This document shows positions 20,719-32,475 of a DNA stretch of 36,307 bases, piece by piece. The stretch covers positions 1 through 36,307 of the forward strand of contig JAFWLP010000031.1 of NCBI GenBank assembly GCA_017511005.1. The letters are read 5' to 3'. The notes under the pieces are model-generated. The model saw only the letters and a list, made by a program, of their open reading frames with translations. It did not search any database and was not told where the DNA came from. The position numbers and the translations under genes were made by a program. Source of the DNA: Clostridiales bacterium (lineage in GTDB: Bacteria; Bacillota; Clostridia; Saccharofermentanales; Saccharofermentanaceae). Position 1 is the first letter of the stretch. The number at the start of each line of letters is the position of its first letter.

Positions 20719-20921
20719 AATCCCCGGACCCGTAAAGAGACCTTCTCCTTTGTTAGTCTTTCAATATGTTATTAGAAAGATACGGCCTTTGCAAACAGGT
20801 CCATTGATCAAAGTGTTTGATTATCACCCTCTCTTATCAGCAATTTATCCCGTTGAATAATGATGATCGATTATCTACTATAAATATTGTGCTTATAAAA
20901 TATATTTATGAGGAGTTCCAT
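20719..20921. promoter_or_regulatory. Divergent promoter region between the kinase and the GH43-esterase genes
   Basis: The 203-base gap must hold leftward and rightward promoters. Leftward, TTGCAA and TAACAT lie 17 bases apart on the minus strand. Rightward, TATAAA-like boxes occur near 20880 and 20895 without a good -35, consistent with an activated promoter. TTGATCAAAGTGTTTGATTA near 20804-20823 is a repeated TTGAT element that could be an operator. All assignments are weak. Confidence 0.3.
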
Positions 20922-23894
20922 ATGCTTAGAATCGTTAAGACCGAGAACGGACTTGTAAGAGGCCTTCCCGGAAACAATACCCGTATATCTGTTTTCAAAG
21001 GAATACCGTTTGCGCAGCCGCCGGTTGGAGAAAACCGCTGGAAGGCACCTCAGCCCTGCAAAGACTGGGACGGTATTTACGATGCATATAAGTTCGGTCC
21101 CATTCCCTATCAGGATCAGCCCGGTGTCGGCACGGACATCTACTGCAGGGAATGGCATGTTGACCCTGACATCGAGCGTGAGGAAGACTGCCTCTACCTG
21201 AACATATGGACCAATGCCAAGAGTGAGAACGATAAACTCCCCGTTCTCATCTGGATCTACGGCGGCGGATTCCAGTGGGGTTATTCCGCGGAGATGGAAT
21301 TCAACGGAGAGAATCTGGCAAAGAAAGGCATCATCGTCGTAACCGTAAACTACCGTCTCGGCGCTTTCGGTTTTCTGGCCCACCCGGATCTTTTCGAAGA
21401 ATCCCCTGAAGCTCCGGCAAACTTCGGATTGCTTGACCAGCAGGCTGCGATGAAATGGGTTAAGAGAAACATTGCCGCATTCGGAGGCGACCCCGACAAC
21501 ATTACAATTGCAGGCCAGTCGGCAGGCGGCGGAAGCGTGCTTAACCACCTTACCGCCCAAACGAGTATCGGTCTGTATGACAGGGCCATCATCCTCTCGG
21601 GAATAATACAGTTTCCCTACATCAAAGACTTCGTAATGACACCCAGGGACATCGATGACGCATGCTCATACGGCAGGAAGTTTTTTGAGAAGCTCGGAGT
21701 CAGCACTGTTGAGGAAGCAAGAAAACTCGATCAGGAATTCATCCGTGAGACATACGGCAAGTTCAGGGAGACCGAGAATTTCTTCTTTACTCCCATGATC
21801 GACAAAGTCTTCATGGACGATGACCCTTATAAGCTCTTCCTCGAAGGAAAGCATGCTCACGTTCCCGTCATGTCAGGCAACACATACGATGAATTCCCGA
21901 GTTTCATTTTCGCGGACTCAAAGGAAGGATTCGAAGCACAGGCAAGAGAACTCTTCGGCGATAAGGCTGATGAATTCCTTTCATTCCCCGAAGCGCAGGC
22001 TCACAACGGCAACATGTACGCATCCGTACGCGCGATCGAGTGCGGGGTCAAAGCCGCATTTGCCCACAATGACAAGGCCGGATATTACTACAGTTTCGAA
22101 CCTGACATTCCCGGAGAGGACGATCCGGGAACCTTCCACTCCGTAGATCTCTGGTTCTTCTTCGACAACCTCGACAAATGCTGGAGACCCATGACAGGAA
22201 GACACTTTGACATTGCAAGACAGATGAGCACGTACTTTGCAAACTTCGTAAAGAACGGCGATCCGAACGGCAATGATGTCGACGGAAGCGCACTCCCTCT
22301 TTGGAAGCCATATACACCGGCTTCACAGAACGAGATGCACTTTACCCGTGACGGTGCAAGACCGGCCGTTCAGGAAGACAATCCGGAGAATGCTTTCTAC
22401 ACGTTCATGACAAGGCACATCGAAGAATCCGCAATGGGTTCCGCCGTTGAGCGCAGCGGTGAGTCCAAGCCCAGAGTCGAGCTTTACGATGTTCCGAAGA
22501 AACAGGCATTCAACCCTTATCTTCCCAACTGGGAATACATCCCTGACGGTGAGCCCTACGTATTTAATGACCGGGTCTATGTTTATGGTTCCCATGATAT
22601 CTTCAACGGACACGCTTTCTGTCTGGACGATTACGTAACATGGTCTGCTCCCGTAAACGATCTCGGCAACTGGACATATGAAGGAGTTATCTTTAAGAGG
22701 ACTGATGATCCCGCCAACAAAGACGACCGCGGCTGCCTTTACGCACCTGACGTTACGGTCGGACCTGACGGAAGATACTATCTCTTCTATGCTCTCGACA
22801 ACGACTGCGTTATCTCCGTTGCGGCAAGTGACTCGCCTTCAGGCAGATTCGAGTTTATTGGAAACGTTCACTATGAGGACGGGACTCTCCTGGGCAAAAA
22901 GGAAGGCGACGAGCAGCAGTTCGATCCGGGCGTCATCACGATCGGCGATACAACGTATATGTACACCGGATTCTGCGGACAGGGCGACAAGTCGCGTCAC
23001 GGATGCATGGTGACAGTTCTTGACAAGGACATGCTGACGGTAAAGCGCGCTCCGGAATTCATGATCCCCTCGACACAGTACAGCCAGGGAACCGAATTTG
23101 AAGGCCACGCATTCTTCGAAGCTCCTTCAATAAGAGAGAGAAACGGTATCTTCTACCTTATCTATTCTTCCCAGGTAATGCACGAACTCTGCTATGCAAC
23201 CTCAGACAACCCGCTGGGACCCTTCAGTTACGGCGGAGTCATCGTAAGCAACTGCGACATCGGTATCGGCACATACAAGCCCGCTGACAAGCCGGCATGC
23301 TTCGGCGCGAACAATCACGGGAGCATTGTGCAGATCGGCGATGATTGGTACATCTTCTATCACAGACAGACCAACAACGACTGGTATTCACGCCAGGGCT
23401 GCGCCGAGAAGATCAGCTTCGGGGAAGACGGATCGATCAGTCAGGTCGAGATCACTTCCTGCGGCCTCAACGGCGGACCTCTGTCCGATAAAGGCGAATA
23501 TCCCGCACACATTGCCTGCAACATCTTCGATGACAGGGACAAGATGTATGTAGGCGAGCCCAAGGCTGCCAACATCACCATGGATATCCGCGACATCGTA
23601 AAGGGTCCCTCCCACATCAGGGACATAGGCAACAATACCACGGTCGGATTCAAGTATTTCGATCTCAAGGGTGTAAAGGGACTGAGGCTCACGACCAGAG
23701 GTTACGGTCAGGGCGAATTCGAGATCAGGACTTCAATTGACGGTGAGGTGCTCGGAAAGATATCCGTAAGATTCTGCACGGCATGGGAAGACGGCAAGGC
23801 AGAGTTCACCGTGCCTGACGGTGTATATCCGCTCTACCTGACATTCAAGGGCGGCGGAAGCACTTCACTCCTGAGTTTTGAATTCCTGCACTGA
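20922..23894 (+). CDS. Carboxylesterase-glycoside hydrolase family 43 fusion with C-terminal CBM-like module
   Basis: A 990-residue enzyme. Residues 1 to about 500 form a type-B carboxylesterase: nucleophile Ser200 in GQSAGG, oxyanion WIYGGGF, probable acid Glu324 and His406. Residues about 530-850 form a five-bladed GH43 domain with the expected acids Asp542 (base), Asp610 (YAPDV) and Glu733 (FFEAPS), and His799 in NNHGS. The last 120 residues look like a CBM6-type beta-sandwich. GH43 enzymes are mainly beta-xylosidases and arabinofuranosidases, so the protein may deacetylate or deferuloylate and then trim imported arabinoxylan fragments; exact specificities are unknown. I chose the ATG at 20922, with AGGAG six bases upstream and the family N-terminus, over an upstream frame extension. 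No signal peptide is present, so it should be cytosolic, fitting the adjacent transporter. Confidence 0.9.
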   Translation: MLRIVKTENGLVRGLPGNNTRISVFKGIPFAQPPVGENRWKAPQPCKDWDGIYDAYKFGPIPYQDQPGVGTDIYCREWHVDPDIEREEDCLYLNIWTNAKSENDKLPVLIWIYGGGFQWGYSAEMEFNGENLAKKGIIVVTVNYRLGAFGFLAHPDLFEESPEAPANFGLLDQQAAMKWVKRNIAAFGGDPDNITIAGQSAGGGSVLNHLTAQTSIGLYDRAIILSGIIQFPYIKDFVMTPRDIDDACSYGRKFFEKLGVSTVEEARKLDQEFIRETYGKFRETENFFFTPMIDKVFMDDDPYKLFLEGKHAHVPVMSGNTYDEFPSFIFADSKEGFEAQARELFGDKADEFLSFPEAQAHNGNMYASVRAIECGVKAAFAHNDKAGYYYSFEPDIPGEDDPGTFHSVDLWFFFDNLDKCWRPMTGRHFDIARQMSTYFANFVKNGDPNGNDVDGSALPLWKPYTPASQNEMHFTRDGARPAVQEDNPENAFYTFMTRHIEESAMGSAVERSGESKPRVELYDVPKKQAFNPYLPNWEYIPDGEPYVFNDRVYVYGSHDIFNGHAFCLDDYVTWSAPVNDLGNWTYEGVIFKRTDDPANKDDRGCLYAPDVTVGPDGRYYLFYALDNDCVISVAASDSPSGRFEFIGNVHYEDGTLLGKKEGDEQQFDPGVITIGDTTYMYTGFCGQGDKSRHGCMVTVLDKDMLTVKRAPEFMIPSTQYSQGTEFEGHAFFEAPSIRERNGIFYLIYSSQVMHELCYATSDNPLGPFSYGGVIVSNCDIGIGTYKPADKPACFGANNHGSIVQIGDDWYIFYHRQTNNDWYSRQGCAEKISFGEDGSISQVEITSCGLNGGPLSDKGEYPAHIACNIFDDRDKMYVGEPKAANITMDIRDIVKGPSHIRDIGNNTTVGFKYFDLKGVKGLRLTTRGYGQGEFEIRTSIDGEVLGKISVRFCTAWEDGKAEFTVPDGVYPLYLTFKGGGSTSLLSFEFLH

Positions 23895-23922: not shown

Positions 23923-23949
23923 AACGGCTGAACTTAAAGTTCAGCCGTT
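23923..23949. terminator. Bidirectional terminator between convergent genes
   Basis: AACGGCTGAAC pairs perfectly with GTTCAGCCGTT around the loop TTAAA. T-rich sequence follows on the minus strand, and a looser T-rich stretch on the plus strand. The TAA stop of the leftward kinase gene falls in the loop. It serves the GH43 gene (rightward) and the kinase gene (leftward). Confidence 0.8.
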
Positions 23950-25172
23950 ATTCTTATCTCTTTATCTTTGCCCTCGGCATATATCTTTCCGCCGTGGGCT
24001 TCTGTTATCCCTCTTGCGATCGACAGACCGATGCCGTAACCTCCTGTCTCCGAATTCCTGGATTCATCCGTTCTGTAGAAACGGTCGAACATGTGGTCAA
24101 GATCTTTTTTCGATACCGGATCCACCGTATCATTTGCAACCGATAACCTGACCCCCTGGCCGTTCCTGACAAGCGAGACTTTCACGGTGCTTCCTTCGGG
24201 AGAATACTTGATCGCATTATCCATCAGGACAGACACCAGTTCCCTTATCGCTTTCTGGTCACCTTTATAGCTGATATCCGGAGTGATGCTTGTCTCAATG
24301 TTTCTGCCTCCCGCTATTGCAAGTCCCCTGAAGGATTCAACGTCTTCAGCTACCACGTCGGAAATGGGAAAATCGATCCTGTTCATCTTGTCCTTCGAGC
24401 CTTCTTCGGTCTTGGCAAGATAGATGAGCCTGTTCGTAAGCTCGGTAAGTCTTTCCGTCTGCTTTCTGATATCGGTGAGCCACTCATTGTTCTCGCTTTC
24501 CATCTCGATGACATCGCAGTCCGCGTTAATGACGGCAAGCGGAGTCTTTATCTCATGTCCCGCATCGGTAATGAACCTCTTCTGTTTCTCATATGCTTCG
24601 GCTACAGGTTTTACGACAGCCTTTGAAAATATGGCTATGAGCGAGAAAACAACAAGCAGGCCGATCACTGAGATGGCAATGCTTATTCCCAAAAACGATC
24701 TGGCATTGTCAAGGCTCCTTCCGCAGTCGTAGAAGACTATCAGCGTGATATCACCGTTGCCGGCCCTTCTGTATCTGTAATCATCAACAAAACCCTGTAT
24801 CTTTCTGGAAGCGTATACGCGTTTAGCAAGAGATACGGCTCCTGATGAGTCAACTGCCGCTATCCTTCCGGTATCAACAGCCACGGAGTTACCTGACTTG
24901 TCAAAAGCAACTGTGAAAAACCTTGCCTCGAAACGCATCTCGGGAGACATGCGGCCTCCCCTTCCGACGTCAAAGAATCCTCCAAATGGCATGGGACCCA
25001 TATCAGCAGGGAACTCGCCCTCGTTTGCAGTAAGTATGTTAAGGACATTATCCGCATCCCTGATGACTTCCCTGAAGTTGAATATATTGATCGAACCGAT
25101 CAGCACCGCAAGGACTGCCGTTACCGACAGCATTGCAATGACAATGAACTTCCTGCGGAGCTTTCCGATCAT
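23934..25172 (-). CDS. Two-component sensor histidine kinase (HisKA/HATPase), partner of the OmpR-type regulator at 25169
   Basis: A 412-residue kinase with TM helices at about 9-31 and 159-182 and an extracellular region of about 125 residues containing a Gly/Phe/Met-rich patch. The phosphoacceptor is His206 in DAGHEIKTPL. The ATPase domain has the N box MDNAIKYS and the late GYGIGLSIA, but the segment where DxGxGI is expected reads VANDTVDPVSKK, a divergent G1 box seen in some Clostridial kinases. It overlaps the regulator gene by four bases. The pair is divergent from the VTC operon and is the natural candidate to control it. Confidence 0.92.
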   Translation of the reverse strand: MIGKLRRKFIVIAMLSVTAVLAVLIGSINIFNFREVIRDADNVLNILTANEGEFPADMGPMPFGGFFDVGRGGRMSPEMRFEARFFTVAFDKSGNSVAVDTGRIAAVDSSGAVSLAKRVYASRKIQGFVDDYRYRRAGNGDITLIVFYDCGRSLDNARSFLGISIAISVIGLLVVFSLIAIFSKAVVKPVAEAYEKQKRFITDAGHEIKTPLAVINADCDVIEMESENNEWLTDIRKQTERLTELTNRLIYLAKTEEGSKDKMNRIDFPISDVVAEDVESFRGLAIAGGRNIETSITPDISYKGDQKAIRELVSVLMDNAIKYSPEGSTVKVSLVRNGQGVRLSVANDTVDPVSKKDLDHMFDRFYRTDESRNSETGGYGIGLSIARGITEAHGGKIYAEGKDKEIRITAEL

Positions 25173-25843
25173 TTGATCTCCTCCAGGGTGTATCCGGCAT
25201 TTCTGACGGCTTTTATCTGAACGTCGGCTTCAAGAGCCGCAAGCTTCTTCCTCAGATAAGAAATGTATGTCCAGGCCGTGCTTATGTCTGATTCCGAATC
25301 CAGACCCCAGATCTTATCCATGAACTTCTCCGTGGAGATCAGGATGCCGGGATTGATCATGAGCATTTCCATCATCTGGAATTCCTTGCCGGCAAGTCTG
25401 TACTTTCCCTTTGGTGATGAGAGCTCGAAGCTGCCCCTGTCCAATTTAAGATTCCCGAATTTAAGGACATTGTCATTGGCGACCGCAGGCTGTCTCGTGA
25501 GCACTCTTATCCTTGCGAGAAGTTCTTTTGTGGCAAACGGCTTCGTGAGATAATCGTTTGCCCCGGAATCCAGTCCCTCAACCTTGTCATCGATCTCGGA
25601 TTTTGCAGTGAGCATAAGGACCGGGACACTGTTGCCCTTAGACCTTATCTCCTTTAAGGCGGAGATGCCGTCCTGCTTAGGCATCATGATGTCCATGATC
25701 ACCAGATCATATTCGCTCGCCATTGCGTAGAGTACAGCTTCTTCACCGTCGAAAACACAGTCGACCGAATAATTGCTCTTGGTAAGGATCGCCTTTAATG
25801 CTTTGGATAAAGATCTCTCGTCTTCCGCCAGAAGTATTCTCAT
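25169..25843 (-). CDS. OmpR/PhoB-type response regulator
   Basis: A 224-residue regulator with receiver domain (1-115; acidic pocket Glu7-Asp8, phosphoacceptor Asp51 in IMDIMMP, conserved Lys in TKPFATKELLAR) and a C-terminal winged helix (about 125-222, with the usual SxAWTYISYLRKK pattern). AGAGGTG precedes the ATG. It is the first gene of the leftward regulator-kinase pair and faces the VTC operon across 161 bases containing a TTTAAG direct repeat. Confidence 0.95.
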   Translation of the reverse strand: MRILLAEDERSLSKALKAILTKSNYSVDCVFDGEEAVLYAMASEYDLVIMDIMMPKQDGISALKEIRSKGNSVPVLMLTAKSEIDDKVEGLDSGANDYLTKPFATKELLARIRVLTRQPAVANDNVLKFGNLKLDRGSFELSSPKGKYRLAGKEFQMMEMLMINPGILISTEKFMDKIWGLDSESDISTAWTYISYLRKKLAALEADVQIKAVRNAGYTLEEIK

Positions 25844-25940: not shown

Positions 25941-25977
25941 TTTAAGGTCTGTTTTAAGTTCGCACCATAAGATTAAG
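25941..25977 (+). promoter_or_regulatory. Probable activated promoter of the VTC operon with a TTTAAG direct repeat
   Basis: TTTAAG occurs at 25941-25946 and 25953-25958, a 12-bp period, and TTAAG again at 25973-25977. Nine bases after the second copy lies TAAGAT (25968-25973), a possible -10, while no -35 is present. Direct repeats replacing the -35 are how OmpR/PhoB-type regulators activate promoters. The start codon follows at 26005. The link to the divergent regulator is inference. Confidence 0.4.
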
Positions 25978-26004: not shown

Positions 26005-26730
26005 ATGGCTTATCTGGATGTTTTCGAGAGATATGAATATAAATACCTTCTTACCACATCACAGAAGAATGCCCTCCTATGTGAGACGGGAGACAGGCTT
26101 ATACTTGATCAGTACGGACGGACCACGATCAGGAACGTCTATTACGATACTGACAGCTTCAGGCTCATAAGAGAGTCGCTGGATCATCCCGTATACAAGG
26201 AAAAACTGAGAGTCAGGTCATATCAAAGGGCAGATGGCGAAGACATGGTCTTCGTCGAGATAAAGAAGAAGTTCGAAGACGTGGTCTATAAAAGACGCGT
26301 GGCAGTTCCGAAGATGACTGCGGGATCGTGGATAGACGGCGGCATGAGTATTCCGTTCACGACGCAGATAACTTCCGAGATAGACTACTTCCTGAAATTC
26401 TATGAAGGAATATCGGCAAAAGCCTTCATCAGTTACGAGAGGGAAGCATATACATGCAGGACTGATCCGGATTTCCGCCTGACATTGGACGAGAACATCC
26501 TGGCAAGAGATACGGACCTGGATCTCGGAAGTGACATTTGGGGAAGCTCCCTCCTTCCCCCGGGGACAACACTCATGGAAGTGAAGATACCGGGCGTAAT
26601 GCCTTTGTGGATGGCAGGATTCCTGAGCCGTCACGGTATAAGAAAGATCACATACTCGAAATACGGAACATACTATCAGGATCATCTGGCTGCGGGCAGA
26701 GATCCGGAAAGGAACATCATATATGCTTAA
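26005..26730 (+). CDS. VTC-domain protein (polyphosphate polymerase-like)
   Basis: A 241-residue soluble protein matching the VTC domain, the catalytic tunnel fold of the eukaryotic vacuolar polyphosphate polymerase within the triphosphate-tunnel (CYTH-like) group. Basic and acidic tunnel motifs are visible in order: RYEYKYLL (9-16), YKEKLRVRSY (64-73), VFVEIKKKF (82-90), YKRRV (95-99), SYERE (143-147), MEVKIPG (191-197) and SKYG (218-221). In yeast Vtc4 the fold makes polyphosphate from ATP; for bacterial homologues the product is not established. I chose the ATG at 26005, where GAGG lies eight bases upstream and the family N-terminus begins; 34 codons of upstream open frame are probably untranslated. 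It overlaps the DUF4956 gene by eight bases. No membrane segment is present. Confidence 0.88.
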   Translation: MAYLDVFERYEYKYLLTTSQKNALLCETGDRLILDQYGRTTIRNVYYDTDSFRLIRESLDHPVYKEKLRVRSYQRADGEDMVFVEIKKKFEDVVYKRRVAVPKMTAGSWIDGGMSIPFTTQITSEIDYFLKFYEGISAKAFISYEREAYTCRTDPDFRLTLDENILARDTDLDLGSDIWGSSLLPPGTTLMEVKIPGVMPLWMAGFLSRHGIRKITYSKYGTYYQDHLAAGRDPERNIIYA

Positions 26731-27403
26731 TCTTTTTGATTCGATAATACCTTCAACCGGAATAACTCCGGTCATATTCATCATACTCGTTCTCGTTACT
26801 CTTGTGCTCGGAGGCATCCTTGCGCTGATACACACTTACAAAAACGATTACACCAGAAGCTTTGTTATGACACTGGCGATCCTCCCCGCAGTCGTCGCAG
26901 TCGTCATACTCATGGTCAACGGCAACATCGGCGCGGGAGTTGCCGTCGCGGGAACATTCAGCCTAGTAAGATTCAGATCTGCGCCCGGAACCGCAAGAGA
27001 GATCGGCGCGATATTCGCCGCCATGGGCATGGGGCTGATAATGGGAATGGGTTATGCCGGATATGCCGTGCTCTTCACCTGCCTTATCGGTCTTGCAATG
27101 CTGATCTACGCCGGTTTCTCCGCTGAAACAAAGGAGAGTCTCCGTAAGAGCCTCAGGATAACGATTCCCGAGAATCTCAACTACACGGACGTTTTCGATG
27201 AGATCTTAAAAAAGTATACAAAGTCTTACAAGCTGAAACAGGTAAAGACCAGCAACATGGGCTCGCTGTTCAAGCTCAGCTACGAAATAGTAATGAGCGA
27301 TCCCTCACTCGAAAAAGAATTCCTTGATGCCATCCGCGTTAGGAACGGAAACCTCGAGATCTCAATCTCGGAATACCAGACACAGGGTACGGACCAGCTT
27401 TAA
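26723..27403 (+). CDS. DUF4956 membrane protein
   Basis: A 226-residue protein with about four membrane helices (15-37, 46-65, 93-110, 112-132) and a cytosolic C-terminal domain of about 90 residues. The most conserved-looking stretch, VRFRSAPGTAREIG (82-95), between glycine-rich segments, is typical of DUF4956 and recalls the layout of MgtC-type proteins. Function is unknown. DUF4956 genes are commonly found next to VTC-domain and CotH genes, and overlap with the VTC gene here implies a shared complex or pathway, perhaps as membrane partner of the tunnel enzyme. AAGGA precedes the start inside the VTC gene. Confidence 0.85.
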   Translation: MLNLFDSIIPSTGITPVIFIILVLVTLVLGGILALIHTYKNDYTRSFVMTLAILPAVVAVVILMVNGNIGAGVAVAGTFSLVRFRSAPGTAREIGAIFAAMGMGLIMGMGYAGYAVLFTCLIGLAMLIYAGFSAETKESLRKSLRITIPENLNYTDVFDEILKKYTKSYKLKQVKTSNMGSLFKLSYEIVMSDPSLEKEFLDAIRVRNGNLEISISEYQTQGTDQL

Positions 27404-27425
27404 CTCACGGAAAGGAGAAACGAAA

Positions 27426-28964
27426 ATGAAACGCTTTAACATAAATCCCAGACTGCTTGCAGCACTTACAGCCGGAACACTCATGCTTCTGCCGCTTTCG
27501 TCATGCACAACTCCGGCAGTGACTTCCAATGTCACGGAGGAGACCGTTTCCGCTGCGGAGACCGTGCCTTCAATGACCTCCGGGGAAACTTTCTCGGGAC
27601 AGGATCTTGAGATCGGATATGACGAGAATGAGTCAGAGACAATAACGCTCAACGGTTCTTCTGCCGTATCGAGTTCATCCTCGGTAATCATCTCGGGATC
27701 GGTGATAACGATCACGTCAAAAGGCACATACATCATATCGGGTACGCTTGACGACGGCAGCATAATAGTAGACGCGGGCGACTCGGATGACATCAGGCTC
27801 ATCCTTAAAGGAGCATCCGTCTCATCATCAGATTACGCCGCCATATACTGTCTCAATGCGGACAACGTCTACATCACACTGGATGAAGGCACGGAGAACC
27901 TTCTCGCCAACAGCGGAGACTTCGAATCAAAAGATGACAACAAGGTCGATGCGGCGGTCTTTGCCAAGACGGATCTAACGATCAACGGCTCCGGAAGCCT
28001 TGAGATAATTTCAACTGCACACGGAATTGCAGGCAAGGATGACGTCAACATTACCGGAGGCAGCATAACCATCGAAAGCGGAAAGGACGGGATCCAGGCA
28101 AACGATTCCGTTGCGATCCAAAACGCATCGGTCGATATTACCTGCGGAAAAGACGGGATCCAGGCTGACAACGAAGACGATCTGAGCAAGGGTTATGTCT
28201 ATATCTCATCAGGCAACATCTCGATCACCGCGGGAGATGACGGCATCACGGCAACATCCTTCCTCCAGATAGATGACGGCACGGTCAGCATCAAAGGTTC
28301 TTACGAAGGGCTTGAAGGTCAGAACATCACGATAAACGGCGGTGACATCTCGATAGTCTCATCAGATGACGCAGTCAATGCGGTATCGGCATCATCTTCC
28401 GGAGAAATGATGAATTCTGACGGAGTCAGCAGCATTACGGTTACCGGAGGAAACATATATATATTAAGTGAAGGTGACGGCATCGATTCCAACGGCTCAT
28501 TCGAGATGACCGGCGGAACACTCACCGTTATGGGACCCGCCATGGGAGCAAACGGATCTCTCGATGTAAACGGCAGCGCCTCCATTACCGGAGGGACAGT
28601 CATAATGGCCGGAGCTTCAAGCATGGCAACTAATTTCACGAACGCTTCACAGGGTGCGGTCCTGATCAATACAGGCAATCAGGCGGAAGGAACGGAGATC
28701 AGCATCTCGGATGAATCAGGCAACGTGATCCTGACAGTTGAATCAGAATGCTCTTATCAGACGGTACTCATAAGCAGTCCTGAGCTTTTAATGGGAAACA
28801 CTTATACCGTCACGGCAGGAGACTACTCTGAAACAGTTACACTTACGGATTACATTTACGGTTCCGGTTCAGGAATGGGCTTCCCGGGAGGCCGGGGTGA
28901 CAGAATGCCCCAAAACAATGATCCGTGGGGATTTCCGGGAGACTTTTCTGACAAAGGTTTTTAA
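27426..28964 (+). CDS. Lipoprotein with carbohydrate-binding beta-helix domain (Cthe_2159/DUF4353-like)
   Basis: A 512-residue lipoprotein. The signal peptide ends in LSSC with lipidated Cys27, then a Thr/Ser/Glu-rich linker. From about 75 to 410 the sequence has regular short beta-strands with Gly/Asp turns, a right-handed parallel beta-helix of the Cthe_2159 family, whose founding member binds plant polysaccharide and calcium. The element GKDGIQA recurs at 219-225 and 241-247, exactly 22 residues apart, one coil. A beta-sandwich-like region (410-475) and a Gly/Phe/Pro-rich tail follow. I chose the ATG at 27426 because AAGGAG lies eight bases upstream and the signal peptide starts there. It closes the VTC operon, suggesting a surface partner of the VTC/DUF4956 pair. 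Confidence 0.87.
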   Translation: MKRFNINPRLLAALTAGTLMLLPLSSCTTPAVTSNVTEETVSAAETVPSMTSGETFSGQDLEIGYDENESETITLNGSSAVSSSSSVIISGSVITITSKGTYIISGTLDDGSIIVDAGDSDDIRLILKGASVSSSDYAAIYCLNADNVYITLDEGTENLLANSGDFESKDDNKVDAAVFAKTDLTINGSGSLEIISTAHGIAGKDDVNITGGSITIESGKDGIQANDSVAIQNASVDITCGKDGIQADNEDDLSKGYVYISSGNISITAGDDGITATSFLQIDDGTVSIKGSYEGLEGQNITINGGDISIVSSDDAVNAVSASSSGEMMNSDGVSSITVTGGNIYILSEGDGIDSNGSFEMTGGTLTVMGPAMGANGSLDVNGSASITGGTVIMAGASSMATNFTNASQGAVLINTGNQAEGTEISISDESGNVILTVESECSYQTVLISSPELLMGNTYTVTAGDYSETVTLTDYIYGSGSGMGFPGGRGDRMPQNNDPWGFPGDFSDKGF

Positions 28965-29102: not shown

Positions 29103-29176
29103 ATCAACAAAGACATTTTTCTATTCCTATTATCCCCATATTTGCGGCCACCCTTCGTGGGTGGTCGCTCCTTTTA
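29103..29176 (+). ncRNA. Candidate small RNA (about 74 nt) bounded by promoter and terminator
   Basis: Between the orphan promoter and the hairpin at 29144-29168 lie about 41 bases of AU-rich sequence with C/U-rich single-stranded stretches (CUAUUCCUAUUAUCCCC) and no start codon with a ribosome binding site. The unit has the size and shape of a small trans-acting RNA. The 3' end overlaps the stop codon of the convergent phosphatase gene, so antisense contact with that mRNA end is also possible. No known RNA family was recognised. Confidence 0.4.
29144..29176 (+). terminator. Rho-independent terminator (rightward)
   Basis: GCGGCCACCC pairs with GGGTGGTCGC (one G-T pair) around the loop TTCGT, followed by TCCTTTTA. 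It can end the VTC operon transcript as well as the candidate small RNA. The T-run is short. Confidence 0.65.
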
Positions 29177-29872: not shown

Positions 29873-30571
29873 ATGTATAACATTCTTATCTGTGATGACG
29901 ACAAAGATATCGTAAACGCTTTGAAGATCTATCTGCAAAATCCGGATTACAGATTGCTTGAGGCTTTTAACGGCATCGAAGCAGTTGAACTCGCAGAGAA
30001 GGAAGACATCCACCTCATATTGCTTGATATCATGATGCCGCAAATGGACGGGATAACAGCGATGGCAAAGATCAGGGAGAAGTTCAATATGCCGATCATC
30101 CTCCTGACTGCAAAATCAGAGGACCAGGACAAGATATTGGGACTTAACATAGGGGCTGATGATTATATCACCAAGCCCTTTAACCCCCTGGAGGTTGCGG
30201 CAAGAGTCGGTTCACAGCTCAGGCGTTATACAAAGCTCGGCTCAGGAACAGTATCCAAGGAACTGCTTACAGTCGGCGGGATCGAACTTGATGACACTAC
30301 CAAGACCGTTACAGTTGACGGAAAAGAAGTCAGCCTCACGCCTACAGAGTTCGACATCCTGAAACTCCTGATGGAAACACCGGGCAAAGTGTTCTCTCCT
30401 AAGGAAATATACCGGAAGGTATGGGGCGAGGATGCTCTGTCGGCAGGAGACAACACCGTTGCGGTTCATATCAGACATTTACGCGAAAAGGTTGAGATAA
30501 CCCCGAACGAACCGAGATACATAAAAGTCATCTTCGGTCAGGGTTATAAGATCGAGAAGGGGAGAAACTAA
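29873..30571 (+). CDS. OmpR/PhoB-type response regulator (VanR-like)
   Basis: A 232-residue regulator with acidic pocket at 8-10 (DDD), phosphoacceptor Asp52 in LLDIMMPQMDG, the conserved lysine in TKPFNPLEV, and a C-terminal winged helix (about 130-230) with the usual EIYRKVWGE and HIRHLREKVE motifs. Its TAA overlaps the kinase ATG by one base. The arrangement and kinase type resemble the VanRS-like pairs common in Clostridia, but no resistance genes are nearby, so its target is unknown. Confidence 0.94.
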   Translation: MYNILICDDDKDIVNALKIYLQNPDYRLLEAFNGIEAVELAEKEDIHLILLDIMMPQMDGITAMAKIREKFNMPIILLTAKSEDQDKILGLNIGADDYITKPFNPLEVAARVGSQLRRYTKLGSGTVSKELLTVGGIELDDTTKTVTVDGKEVSLTPTEFDILKLLMETPGKVFSPKEIYRKVWGEDALSAGDNTVAVHIRHLREKVEITPNEPRYIKVIFGQGYKIEKGRN

Positions 30572-32475
30572 TGGAAAAGAAGAGCAAACAGTTTTTAAGG
30601 ACAATTCCGGGAAAAACCCTTTTGTTCCTTGTCATCAACATCCTGTTGATAATCGCTTTCGGATGCGTATGTGCTTCCGTGGCATGCATACAGGAAGACC
30701 TTTACAATATGACCGAAGAGGAATTCTATCAGACTAAGGACGATTCAAACGTCTACTATGATGTTATGGACCAGACGGAATACCTTATCGGCATCGATAA
30801 ATATCATGTTGACAACATGAGTATCAAAGTTACGGGCAAAGACGGAAAACTAATCGCGGCCACACATGATTTTGATGATGTAGCTGCAGCCGCAGGCAAA
30901 TCCGGCGAATTCCAGAATTACAAACTCTACACATACGACATCAAACTTGTTTACGGGGAAGACGGAGAATACAAGCACTCTCATGACCGTTATTCAGAAC
31001 CGGGAGATACAGTTGTCGATGCCACAGTCGAAGCTTATGCAGATCCTGTACTCTTATCACAATACTCAGCATTTGACAGACAGGTCATCCACTTCGTTAT
31101 GAGCATCCGCTACGCGGTCTACCCTGTTGCCTTTTTATGCTTAATCGCAGGCATTGCCGCATTTATTGCTCTTATGTGCGTTGCAGGAAAAAGACCCGGT
31201 ACGGAGGAAGTGTTCCTCGGACCTGTCGGTAAAGTTCCGTTTGATGTTCTTGCAGTTGTTACACTGTTCATTACTTCAGGCCTGTTCTTATTATCAGGCG
31301 CTACAGGCAGGCAGCTAGCCGAAGCTTTGATCTTCGCTTTTGCATCCTTCGTATTTGTCAATGCCATGCTCGGACTTTGCATGAGCTTTGCAGCCAGAGC
31401 AAGACTGCATGTTCTCTTTAAGGGAACCCTGATTTATAAGACTGTCCACCTCATCATAAAGGGTATACTCGCTATCCCTCTTGTGTGGAGAACCATATTG
31501 ATCCTTGCTTCATTATCATTTATTGAGTTCATAGTTATTGTGGGCTCAAGAGCCGATGAAGAGGTCTTTATTATCGGCTGGTTCTTAGAAAAGCTCGTCT
31601 TCTATCCCTTCATTCTCTACATAGCGTTTATGCTCAAAAAGCTTAAAACCGCCGGTGATAAACTTGCTTCCGGAGATATTACATACCGTGCAAGCACAAA
31701 GGGACTCTGGGGAGATTTCAAAAAACATGCCGTAAATCTTAATGCGGTTTCAGATTCCGTAACTATCGCAGTTGAAGACAGGCTTAAGTCAGAGCGCATG
31801 AAGACCGAGCTTATCACCAATGTCTCTCATGACATCAAGACACCTCTTACTTCTATCATAAATTACGCGCAACTTATGGGAACAACTGATCCCTCCGATC
31901 CCAAGATGAGCGAATATTCCGAAGTAGTCGTAAGGCAGTCTGAAAAGCTGAAAAGACTCATTGAAGATCTGGTTGAAGCATCAAAAGCATCTACCGGCAA
32001 TCTTGAGATCGTTCCCGCTCCCCTCGACTGCTGCACTTTTGTCTCACAGACGGCAGGCGAATTCAAGGAAAGACTCGACAGCTGCGGTCTCTCACTTATA
32101 ACAAACGCACCTGAAGACAAGGTCATGATAATGGCTGACGGCAGACGCATGATGAGGATCTACGATAACCTAATGAATAACATCTGCAAATATGCACAGC
32201 CCGGAACAAGGGTCTATCTGACACTCGAGGTCAAAAACGGAAGAGCTGTCACGACATTCAAAAACACATCAAGTGCCGAGCTGAACATCAGTGCTGAAGA
32301 ACTGGTCGAGAGATTCGTAAGAGGAGATTCGTCACGCAATACCGAAGGCAACGGTTTGGGTCTCTCGATTGCCAAAAGCCTTACCGAGCTTCAGGACGGA
32401 ATTTTCGACATATCGATAGACGGAGATCTCTTCAAGGTTACACTGTCATTTCCGGTTATCGTACAACAGTCCTGA
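30571..32475 (+). CDS. Six-TM sensor histidine kinase
   Basis: A 634-residue kinase. A first TM (17-39) precedes an extracellular region of about 140 residues rich in Tyr and acidic residues; then come five further helices (about 180-204, 224-243, 248-272, 303-324, 333-355). A HAMP-like linker leads to HisKA with His420 in NVSHDIKTPL and a HATPase domain with DNLMNNICKYA and GNGLGLSIA. The segment where DxGxGI is expected reads FKNTSSAELN, again a divergent G1 box. The multi-helix block is unusual for a simple periplasmic sensor and may sense within the membrane. GGGGAG precedes the ATG. Confidence 0.92.
   Translation: MEKKSKQFLRTIPGKTLLFLVINILLIIAFGCVCASVACIQEDLYNMTEEEFYQTKDDSNVYYDVMDQTEYLIGIDKYHVDNMSIKVTGKDGKLIAATHDFDDVAAAAGKSGEFQNYKLYTYDIKLVYGEDGEYKHSHDRYSEPGDTVVDATVEAYADPVLLSQYSAFDRQVIHFVMSIRYAVYPVAFLCLIAGIAAFIALMCVAGKRPGTEEVFLGPVGKVPFDVLAVVTLFITSGLFLLSGATGRQLAEALIFAFASFVFVNAMLGLCMSFAARARLHVLFKGTLIYKTVHLIIKGILAIPLVWRTILILASLSFIEFIVIVGSRADEEVFIIGWFLEKLVFYPFILYIAFMLKKLKTAGDKLASGDITYRASTKGLWGDFKKHAVNLNAVSDSVTIAVEDRLKSERMKTELITNVSHDIKTPLTSIINYAQLMGTTDPSDPKMSEYSEVVVRQSEKLKRLIEDLVEASKASTGNLEIVPAPLDCCTFVSQTAGEFKERLDSCGLSLITNAPEDKVMIMADGRRMMRIYDNLMNNICKYAQPGTRVYLTLEVKNGRAVTTFKNTSSAELNISAEELVERFVRGDSSRNTEGNGLGLSIAKSLTELQDGIFDISIDGDLFKVTLSFPVIVQQS

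Follow-up and report, generated by a model that had tools for sequence, protein, structure and literature searches.

A conserved VTC-DUF4956 gene module with an exported Cthe_2159-type partner: a candidate envelope system in clostridial genomes

Why should a gene for a polyphosphate-polymerase-like enzyme be followed so closely by genes for a membrane protein of the DUF4956 family and for a surface lipoprotein? This arrangement occupies positions 26005 to 28964 of the forward strand of a 36,307-nucleotide contig (JAFWLP010000031.1; the whole of this stretch is called the window here) from a Clostridiales bacterium of the Saccharofermentanaceae, whose assembly (GCA_017511005.1) comprises 1.84 Mb in 82 contigs and is 76% complete. 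Our comparison confirmed that the locus is a real and strongly conserved module. As to its role, we tentatively propose, from sequence and with somewhat less than even confidence, a conserved envelope module in which a Vtc4-like polymerase and an MgtC-like membrane subunit would supply a polymer to an anchored surface protein, with a regulator of its own.

Layout and conservation of the operon

The VTC, DUF4956 and Cthe_2159 lipoprotein genes form a tight operon on the forward strand, divergent from an OmpR-type regulator/kinase pair:

23934..25172, reverse strand: sensor histidine kinase (HisKA and HATPase_c; Pfam)
25169..25843, reverse strand: OmpR-type response regulator (Response_reg and Trans_reg_C; Pfam), best NCBIfam match RppA
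25941..25958, forward strand: candidate operator, direct repeat TTTAAG-N6-TTTAAG, 46 bp ahead of the VTC start
26005..26730, forward strand: VTC-domain protein (polyphosphate-polymerase-like tunnel enzyme), 241 residues; PF09359, 112.9 bits (cut-off 23)
26723..27403, forward strand: DUF4956 membrane protein with MgtC-like transmembrane and ACT-like C-terminal parts, 226 residues; PF16316, 57.6 bits (cut-off 30.6)
27426..28964, forward strand: Cthe_2159-type beta-helix lipoprotein, 512 residues; PF14262, 239.5 bits (cut-off 25.8)

Pfam matches above the cut-offs bear out the gene identities given in the original prediction, and its coordinates and operon layout hold. The three ATG start codons lie at 26005, 26723 and 27426, and the last stop codon ends at 28964; the VTC and DUF4956 reading frames share 8 bp, an AAGGAG stretch resembling a ribosome-binding site precedes the ATG of the Cthe_2159 gene, and 161 bp separate the divergent response regulator gene from the VTC gene. 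The regulator scored 205.6 bits against the RppA model, under its cut-off of 250. In the third protein the predicted lipoprotein signal can be read directly as the lipobox LSSC with Cys27. This protein ends in a short Gly/Pro-rich tail and matches the structure 4peu_A (E 5.2e-36), whose entry, titled 'uncharacterized protein', we take to be Cthe_2159 of Clostridium thermocellum (4peu/4phb); the family is the same, and here its member is a lipoprotein within a VTC-DUF4956 operon.

A neighbourhood survey upheld the expectation that these genes stay together in related genomes. Of the 115 family genomes, 81 had VTC, 77 DUF4956, 81 Cthe_2159 and 14 CotH, and every DUF4956 place (83/83) lay within 3.5 kb of a VTC gene on the same strand; 14 VTC matches with E above 1e-7 in this sample were set apart and enter no count, and position counts take each Cthe_2159 or CotH protein once and leave some weak matches out. 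Cthe_2159 was the partner at 66 of the 83 places and CotH at 10, with both at none, in keeping with the idea that Cthe_2159 here takes the place of CotH. Neither was found at the remaining 7, two of which (G055, G034) reach a contig end just past DUF4956; at another (G036) Cthe_2159 lies about 9 kb further on, and at a fourth (G008, locus L158) the window's flanking genes are kept and the lipoprotein gene is absent.

The linkage holds well beyond the family. In an even sample of 299 genomes across the phylum, VTC and DUF4956 were confined to the same 48, and 54 of the 55 DUF4956 places adjoined VTC, the remaining one lying near a contig end. The partner at these 55 places was CotH only at 32, Cthe_2159 only at 14, both at 1 and neither at 8; the sole place with both (L107:5500-9400, in G306) has VTC, DUF4956, CotH and Cthe_2159 in one row. 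VTC places with no DUF4956 within 3.5 kb numbered 3 of 86 in the family and 3 of 57 in the phylum sample, and of each three one was at a contig edge or on another contig than its DUF4956 and the others were partial matches. Cthe_2159 occurred in 33 genomes of the phylum sample, 27 with DUF4956 and 6 without. Because DUF4956 adjoins VTC at 54 of 55 places and Cthe_2159 stands apart from DUF4956 at 20 of its 36, VTC is bound to DUF4956, with Cthe_2159 a frequent but looser companion. Measured from longest-frame starts, the VTC-DUF4956 gap had a median of -8 bp (at most 50 bp in 146 of 155) and the DUF4956-Cthe_2159 gap a median of 13 bp (at most 50 bp in 94 of 104 pairs).

Further afield, where presence alone was scored, three of 14 named control genomes held VTC and DUF4956: Bacteroides ihuae together with Cthe_2159, and Corynebacterium glutamicum and Methanosarcina acetivorans together with CotH. 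Paenibacillus cellulosilyticus, of the class Bacilli, has the same layout as the window, kinase and regulator included. Among the best 80 of 564 confirmed loci, the nearest DUF4956 records came from rumen and gut clostridial assemblies including Mageeibacillus and Saccharofermentans; these 80 were retrieved with a Cthe-type DUF4956 profile, which over-represents the Cthe type. Among the loci compared, L155/L209 and L162/L208 are duplicates. Across 161 loci, wide recurrence was limited to VTC, DUF4956, the partner and the regulator pair. The next-commonest neighbour cluster, an ABC-transporter ATPase, reached 28 of the 161, and of seven further clusters in at least 8 loci five were identified (ABC ATPase, Mbeg1-like, MatE, histidine phosphatase and YidC-type).

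Alternative exported partners

The co-occurrence of VTC, DUF4956 and CotH was rightly described as known, since in streptococci and clostridia CotH, polyphosphate polymerase, DUF4956 and DUF4832 genes adjoin Pel operons as an accessory set (PMC7112168; see also PMC12345266). How, then, does the Cthe_2159 version relate to it? The test was confined to the phylum sample, whose VTC tree held 54 proteins, 45 of them with a single known partner; partner type required only 3 changes, against a mean of 12.1 and a minimum of 8 in 200 shuffles; the tree of 53 DUF4956 proteins likewise gave 3 changes (shuffled mean 12.1, minimum 9). Our in-house CotH profile had missed one CotH of about 1000 residues that Pfam found (G211:C80, locus L128), and relabelling it left the count at 3. 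Cthe_2159 and CotH behave like alternatives, each the exported partner in one of two VTC clades. There are three exceptions: L101 and L115 fall on the Cthe side with a CotH partner, and L136 falls on the CotH side with a Cthe partner. The earlier description of CotH as missing stands for the source assembly, in which, at 76% completeness, no CotH match was found; the word is less apt for the family as a whole, where each clade has its own partner. Six loci (L104, L118, L119, L127, L128, L132) form a VTC subgroup with 97% support within the CotH side; in these DUF4956 comes before VTC, and in two of them (L104, L128) a CotH of about 1000 residues lies close by.

The clade division is also visible in the proteins themselves. 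An RN[GS]N[LM] motif near the DUF4956 C-terminus occurred in 94 of 107 Cthe-type, 2 of 32 CotH-type and 11 of 20 partnerless proteins. A lipobox, sought with a permissive pattern, was present in 96 of 109 Cthe_2159 partners compared with 5 of 35 CotH partners, and a hydrophobic C-terminal segment was found in 21 of 35 CotH partners compared with 1 of 106 Cthe_2159 proteins; because of these counts the third gene looks like an exported, anchored component in both versions. Segments rich in Gly, Pro, Met, Gln and Asn are frequent in both partners (CotH-type L122, L133, L144, L180; Cthe-type L237, L238, L250): a 40-residue segment with a fraction of at least 0.6 occurred in 72 of 109 Cthe_2159 proteins, 22 of 35 CotH proteins and 10 of 695 other open reading frames. 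Such segments were dropped as a shared mark of the partners, as Cthe_2159 proteins from genomes without VTC reach 0.57 and the window's own protein only 0.47. RGG-type tails were considered as polyanion binders and rejected (18 of the 23 recognisable tails among 106 proteins, against 12.0 after shuffling with a maximum of 18; median net charge zero).

With the Pel accessory set (PMC7112168, PMC12345266) the window shares the DUF4956 family, a polyphosphate-polymerase gene and one exported partner; it differs in that the partner is Cthe_2159, neither CotH nor PelG was found in the assembly, a regulator pair is adjacent and the VTC protein belongs to the other large clade. PelG had no match in the source assembly, at its 76% completeness, and no pel family was found among the 18 window proteins scanned. 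In the 75 DUF4956-bearing genomes searched (of 124 found), PelG exceeded the cut-off in two, once beside the locus and once on another contig, with two further matches under the cut-off. By a hand count that uses PelG as single marker and includes several incomplete assemblies, 40 of 43 CotH-type places were in genomes without PelG above the cut-off, which does not fit the statement of PMC12345266 that the three genes were not seen arranged together away from the Pel locus. NELoc-2 of Clostridium perfringens also brings together a CotH gene and two genes with a polyphosphate-polymerase domain, and the portion of its description at hand makes no mention of DUF4956 or Cthe_2159 (PMC11677781). 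Its gene list resembles a row on a Planococcus plasmid (L330:4160-10354) of polymerase, DUF4956, CotH, an unknown gene, a HEAT-repeat gene and a glycosyltransferase. The CotH version of the set is already known from Pel operons, and the Cthe_2159 version was not found in the literature searched: no paper pairing Cthe_2159 with VTC or DUF4956 came up in a search whose coverage left out most subscription journals.

Enzyme, membrane protein and regulator

Is the VTC protein likely to be a polymerase? A profile of 19 bacterial VTC proteins matched yeast Vtc4 (3g3q) with E 1.9e-20, and all its solved-structure matches with E below 1e-8 were VTC subunits, Vtc4 being the best. Residues R9, K13, R69, R71, K87, K96, R146, R158, E192, K194, S218 and K219 are kept in 154-156 of 156 VTC proteins. 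Basic tunnel residues aligned to Vtc4 (3g3q/5iiq), which presumably bear the numbers K200, K281, R361 and R373 there, are kept in 155-156 of 156, and E192 and K219 may, by motif, be the equivalents of E426 and K458. Counted along the alignment, R69 and R71 fall on Vtc4 R264 and R266, and changes of R264, R266 and E426 inactivated yeast VTC (PMC9911596). To judge by these alignments, the tunnel residue set is polymerase-like and not identical to that of Vtc4. The likeness to the yeast complex of Vtc1, Vtc3 and Vtc4 (PMC9911596) extends to a membrane part, which there belongs to the complex and here to the operon; in the bacterial VTC protein, however, SPX and any further Pfam domain are lacking, the membrane partner is MgtC-like and the cell membrane replaces that of the vacuole. 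PPK1 was found in 107 of the 115 family genomes, the source genome included (G000:C82), and VTC would therefore be a second polymerase, for which bulk phosphate storage is an unlikely role.

DUF4956 had been called a small membrane protein of unknown function, and this description can be amended: it is a relative of MgtC. An hhalign comparison of 24 DUF4956 with 17 MgtC proteins gave 96.8% (E 2.5e-10, 204 columns), against at most 1.5% in reversed and column-shuffled controls, and with a narrower set of 12 DUF4956 proteins the value was 91.7%, over 124 columns. The MgtC profile matched 129 of 162 DUF4956 open reading frames at E below 0.01, and the Pfam MgtC model matched one DUF4956 protein at 7.7e-4, below its cut-off. 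From these profile comparisons DUF4956 is homologous to MgtC, in agreement with an account of SIR_1592, the homologue in Streptococcus intermedius, in which an MgtC transmembrane part is joined to an ACT domain inside the cell (PMC12345266). The profile-profile match to the MgtC/SapB family covers the transmembrane and C-terminal parts; DUF4956 differs in its RFR motif and in having VTC as neighbour at 54 of 55 phylum-sample places. G77, R85 and G104 are kept in 160 of 160 proteins and R83 in 159, making the motif nearly invariant, and the charge distribution places this segment, probably, at the cytoplasmic face. A separate MgtC was not found in the source assembly (76% complete). On a Hymenobacter plasmid (L327:3637-6877) DUF4956 is flanked on one side by a TolC-type outer-membrane protein and on the other by an HlyD-like adaptor with a weak match (E 6.3e-6), which is an export context for the family, seen once. 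On Sinorhizobium meliloti pSymA (L332:2790-5160) a DUF4956 gene follows a gene for a caspase-like C14 peptidase, with no VTC in the 9.6 kb covered; DUF4956 may serve some other purpose at that locus.

The association with an OmpR-type pair, which had also been put forward, recurs across the loci compared. With more than 5.5 kb on both flanks, a response regulator lay within 5.5 kb in 57 of 72 Cthe-type and 11 of 24 CotH-type loci. In Cthe-type loci with more than 4.5 kb upstream, the upstream regulator/kinase was divergent in 42 of 89 and codirectional in 19 of 89 (8 and 5 of 30 in CotH-type loci). Regulator genes reached a density of 2.12 per 10 kb at -3.5 to -1 kb and were absent from the bins at -8 to -6 kb (138 kb) and +6.5 to +8 kb (115 kb). 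Upstream regulators resembled that of the window more closely (median 294 bits when divergent, 267 when codirectional) than downstream ones did (126 and 110), and over the loci compared 21 regulator genes stood 0.5-6.5 kb downstream on the operon's strand.

A candidate operator accompanies the divergent pair. Within the window TTTAAG-N4..6-TTTAAG has a single strict match, at 25941-25958, where 0.02 were expected; its shape is like that of PmrA/QseB-type boxes. The degenerate direct repeat [CT]TTAA[GTA] with a 5-base spacer occurred in 15 of 51 divergent intergenic regions (dinucleotide shuffles: mean 0.6, maximum 3), with spacers of 4 and 6 in 9 regions each, of 7 in 6, and of 9 and 10 in none. 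It was also found, with the 5-base spacer, in 15 of 109 regions without a divergent regulator (shuffled mean 0.9); related loci inflate all these counts.

Two further features lie downstream of the operon:

29144..29168, forward strand: terminator-like hairpin after the operon, 10 pairs, 8 of them G-C
29873..32475, forward strand: second regulator/kinase pair, the regulator by Pfam, the kinase by position and profile match

The hairpin is weak alone, three terminator-like sites having been found in the window where 2.9 were expected. The second pair, also OmpR-type, begins 0.9 kb past the operon and keeps its place in close relatives, with a histidine-phosphatase gene between. Upstream, on the forward strand at 20817-23894, a single open frame joins a carboxylesterase (PF00135) to a GH43 glycosidase (PF04616), a two-enzyme protein whose target may be a substituted plant polysaccharide. 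No tRNA genes or Rfam families were found within the window.

What the module may do

In the reading we favour, the VTC protein would be a tunnel enzyme in the cytoplasm, taking a nucleoside triphosphate and building a phosphate chain from it on the inside of the membrane; DUF4956, with its cytoplasmic ACT-like part and RFR motif, would dock the enzyme to the membrane and gate or pass the chain; and the exported partner, here the Cthe_2159 beta-helix lipoprotein, would use or hold the polymer at the cell surface and may tie the polymer to polysaccharide of plants or cell walls. Control of the operon would fall to the divergent response regulator, acting through the tandem TTTAAG repeat. The identity of the polymer, its transit, the ligand of the lipoprotein and direct regulation are the parts that we infer. 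By analogy with yeast VTC, which couples polyphosphate synthesis to membrane passage (PMC9911596), the pair most likely makes polyphosphate and hands it outward. The original prediction, in which the tunnel enzyme made a phosphate-containing polymer that DUF4956 anchored or exported and the lipoprotein linked to polysaccharide, is as a whole partly supported; the findings that it named as counting against it did not turn up, since the linkage is conserved and the tunnel residues are kept.

Several observations weigh against this proposal. The Vtc4 alignment stops before the C-terminal part of the enzyme, so that E192 (156/156) and K219 (155/156) lie outside it, and the RxExK motif has an acidic residue, E11, at a place where hydrolytic TTM proteins are acidic too and Vtc4 has Thr. 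Taken alone, the halves of the MgtC alignment reach 39% (membrane) and 57% (C-terminal), and we know of no MgtC protein established as a transporter. The Hymenobacter locus has no VTC beside DUF4956, and 14 of the 20 unlinked Cthe_2159 places are in genomes with DUF4956 elsewhere. Lastly, deletion of the VTC homologue SIR_1593 of S. intermedius had no reported effect, in contrast to the deletions of the DUF4956 and CotH homologues (PMC12345266), which speaks against a simple version of the mechanism.

The same experiments lend weight to a different reading, somewhat unlikely in our view, in which the module regulates or tunes an exopolysaccharide or surface-adhesion pathway and exports no polymer, the ACT-like part of DUF4956 sensing a metabolite and VTC setting local phosphate or nucleotide signalling. 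In S. intermedius, aggregation fell by more than 50% in one medium in mutants of the DUF4956 and CotH homologues, with more Pel in the former and less in the latter, and no effect was reported for the VTC deletion; the same paper cites Salmonella MgtC acting on ATP synthase and PhoR (PMC12345266). Against this reading, 73 of the 75 DUF4956-bearing genomes searched lacked PelG over the cut-off, no gene beyond VTC, DUF4956, the partner and the regulator pair recurs widely in the 161 loci, and the VTC tunnel residues are kept.

Alternatively, VTC and DUF4956 might provide the cell exterior, with its scarcity of ATP, with an energy-rich phosphate chain that would serve the exported partner as phosphoryl donor or modifying group: a kinase donor for CotH, a bound or attached polyanion for Cthe_2159. 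Most loci do carry a CotH- or Cthe_2159-family partner with export signals or anchors, but no transferase role of Cthe_2159 is known to us, and we regard this reading as unlikely. Members of the Cthe_2159 family are reported to bind cellulose and polygalacturonate, the latter also a polyanion (PMC6712302).

Could the tunnel enzyme instead hydrolyse or convert triphosphate, as many TTM proteins do, and make no polymer? AtTTM3, with a Vtc4-like tunnel centre, made no detectable polyphosphate, and has four Glu in place of Vtc4 basic residues (PMC4641920). The structure matches below 1e-8, all to VTC subunits with Vtc4 best, argue the other way, and we hold this reading to be improbable. Placed tentatively by the EXEXK motif, R9 and K194 would stand at two of the hydrolytic-TTM Glu positions, where they are basic, and the acidic E11 at a third; a Lys is found at the presumed Vtc4 K458 position in 155 of 156 proteins. 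Finally, a chance neighbourhood, with an ordinary cellulose or pectin adhesin beside unrelated genes, is highly improbable and we reject it, for although 6 of the 33 genomes with Cthe_2159 lack DUF4956 and 20 of 36 Cthe_2159 places stand apart from it, Cthe_2159 lies beside DUF4956 at 66 of 83 family and 15 of 55 phylum places, the pairing extends over 10 family codes among the loci compared with a median gap of 13 bp in 104 pairs, and VTC is linked at 83/83 and 54/55.

We return to the proposed envelope module, which can be carried one step further. In this fuller and unlikely form VTC would make polyphosphate, DUF4956 would export the chain under ACT gating, and CotH would use it as a phosphate donor, Cthe_2159 lipoproteins serving as surface polyphosphate receptor or cross-linker to plant fibre; if true, the pair would be a bacterial counterpart of the vacuolar VTC machine and MgtC-like proteins would be polyanion gates. 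To our knowledge no bacterial route for polyphosphate across the membrane is established, and the locus names a two-gene candidate for this passage with near-perfect co-occurrence (the same 48 of 299 genomes). The DUF4956 family gains a supported homology in MgtC. Together these results suggest that in many gut and soil bacteria the three-gene set makes a phosphate polymer at the membrane for use at the surface, and since the exported partner comes in two clade-bound versions, its function is open to comparative study.

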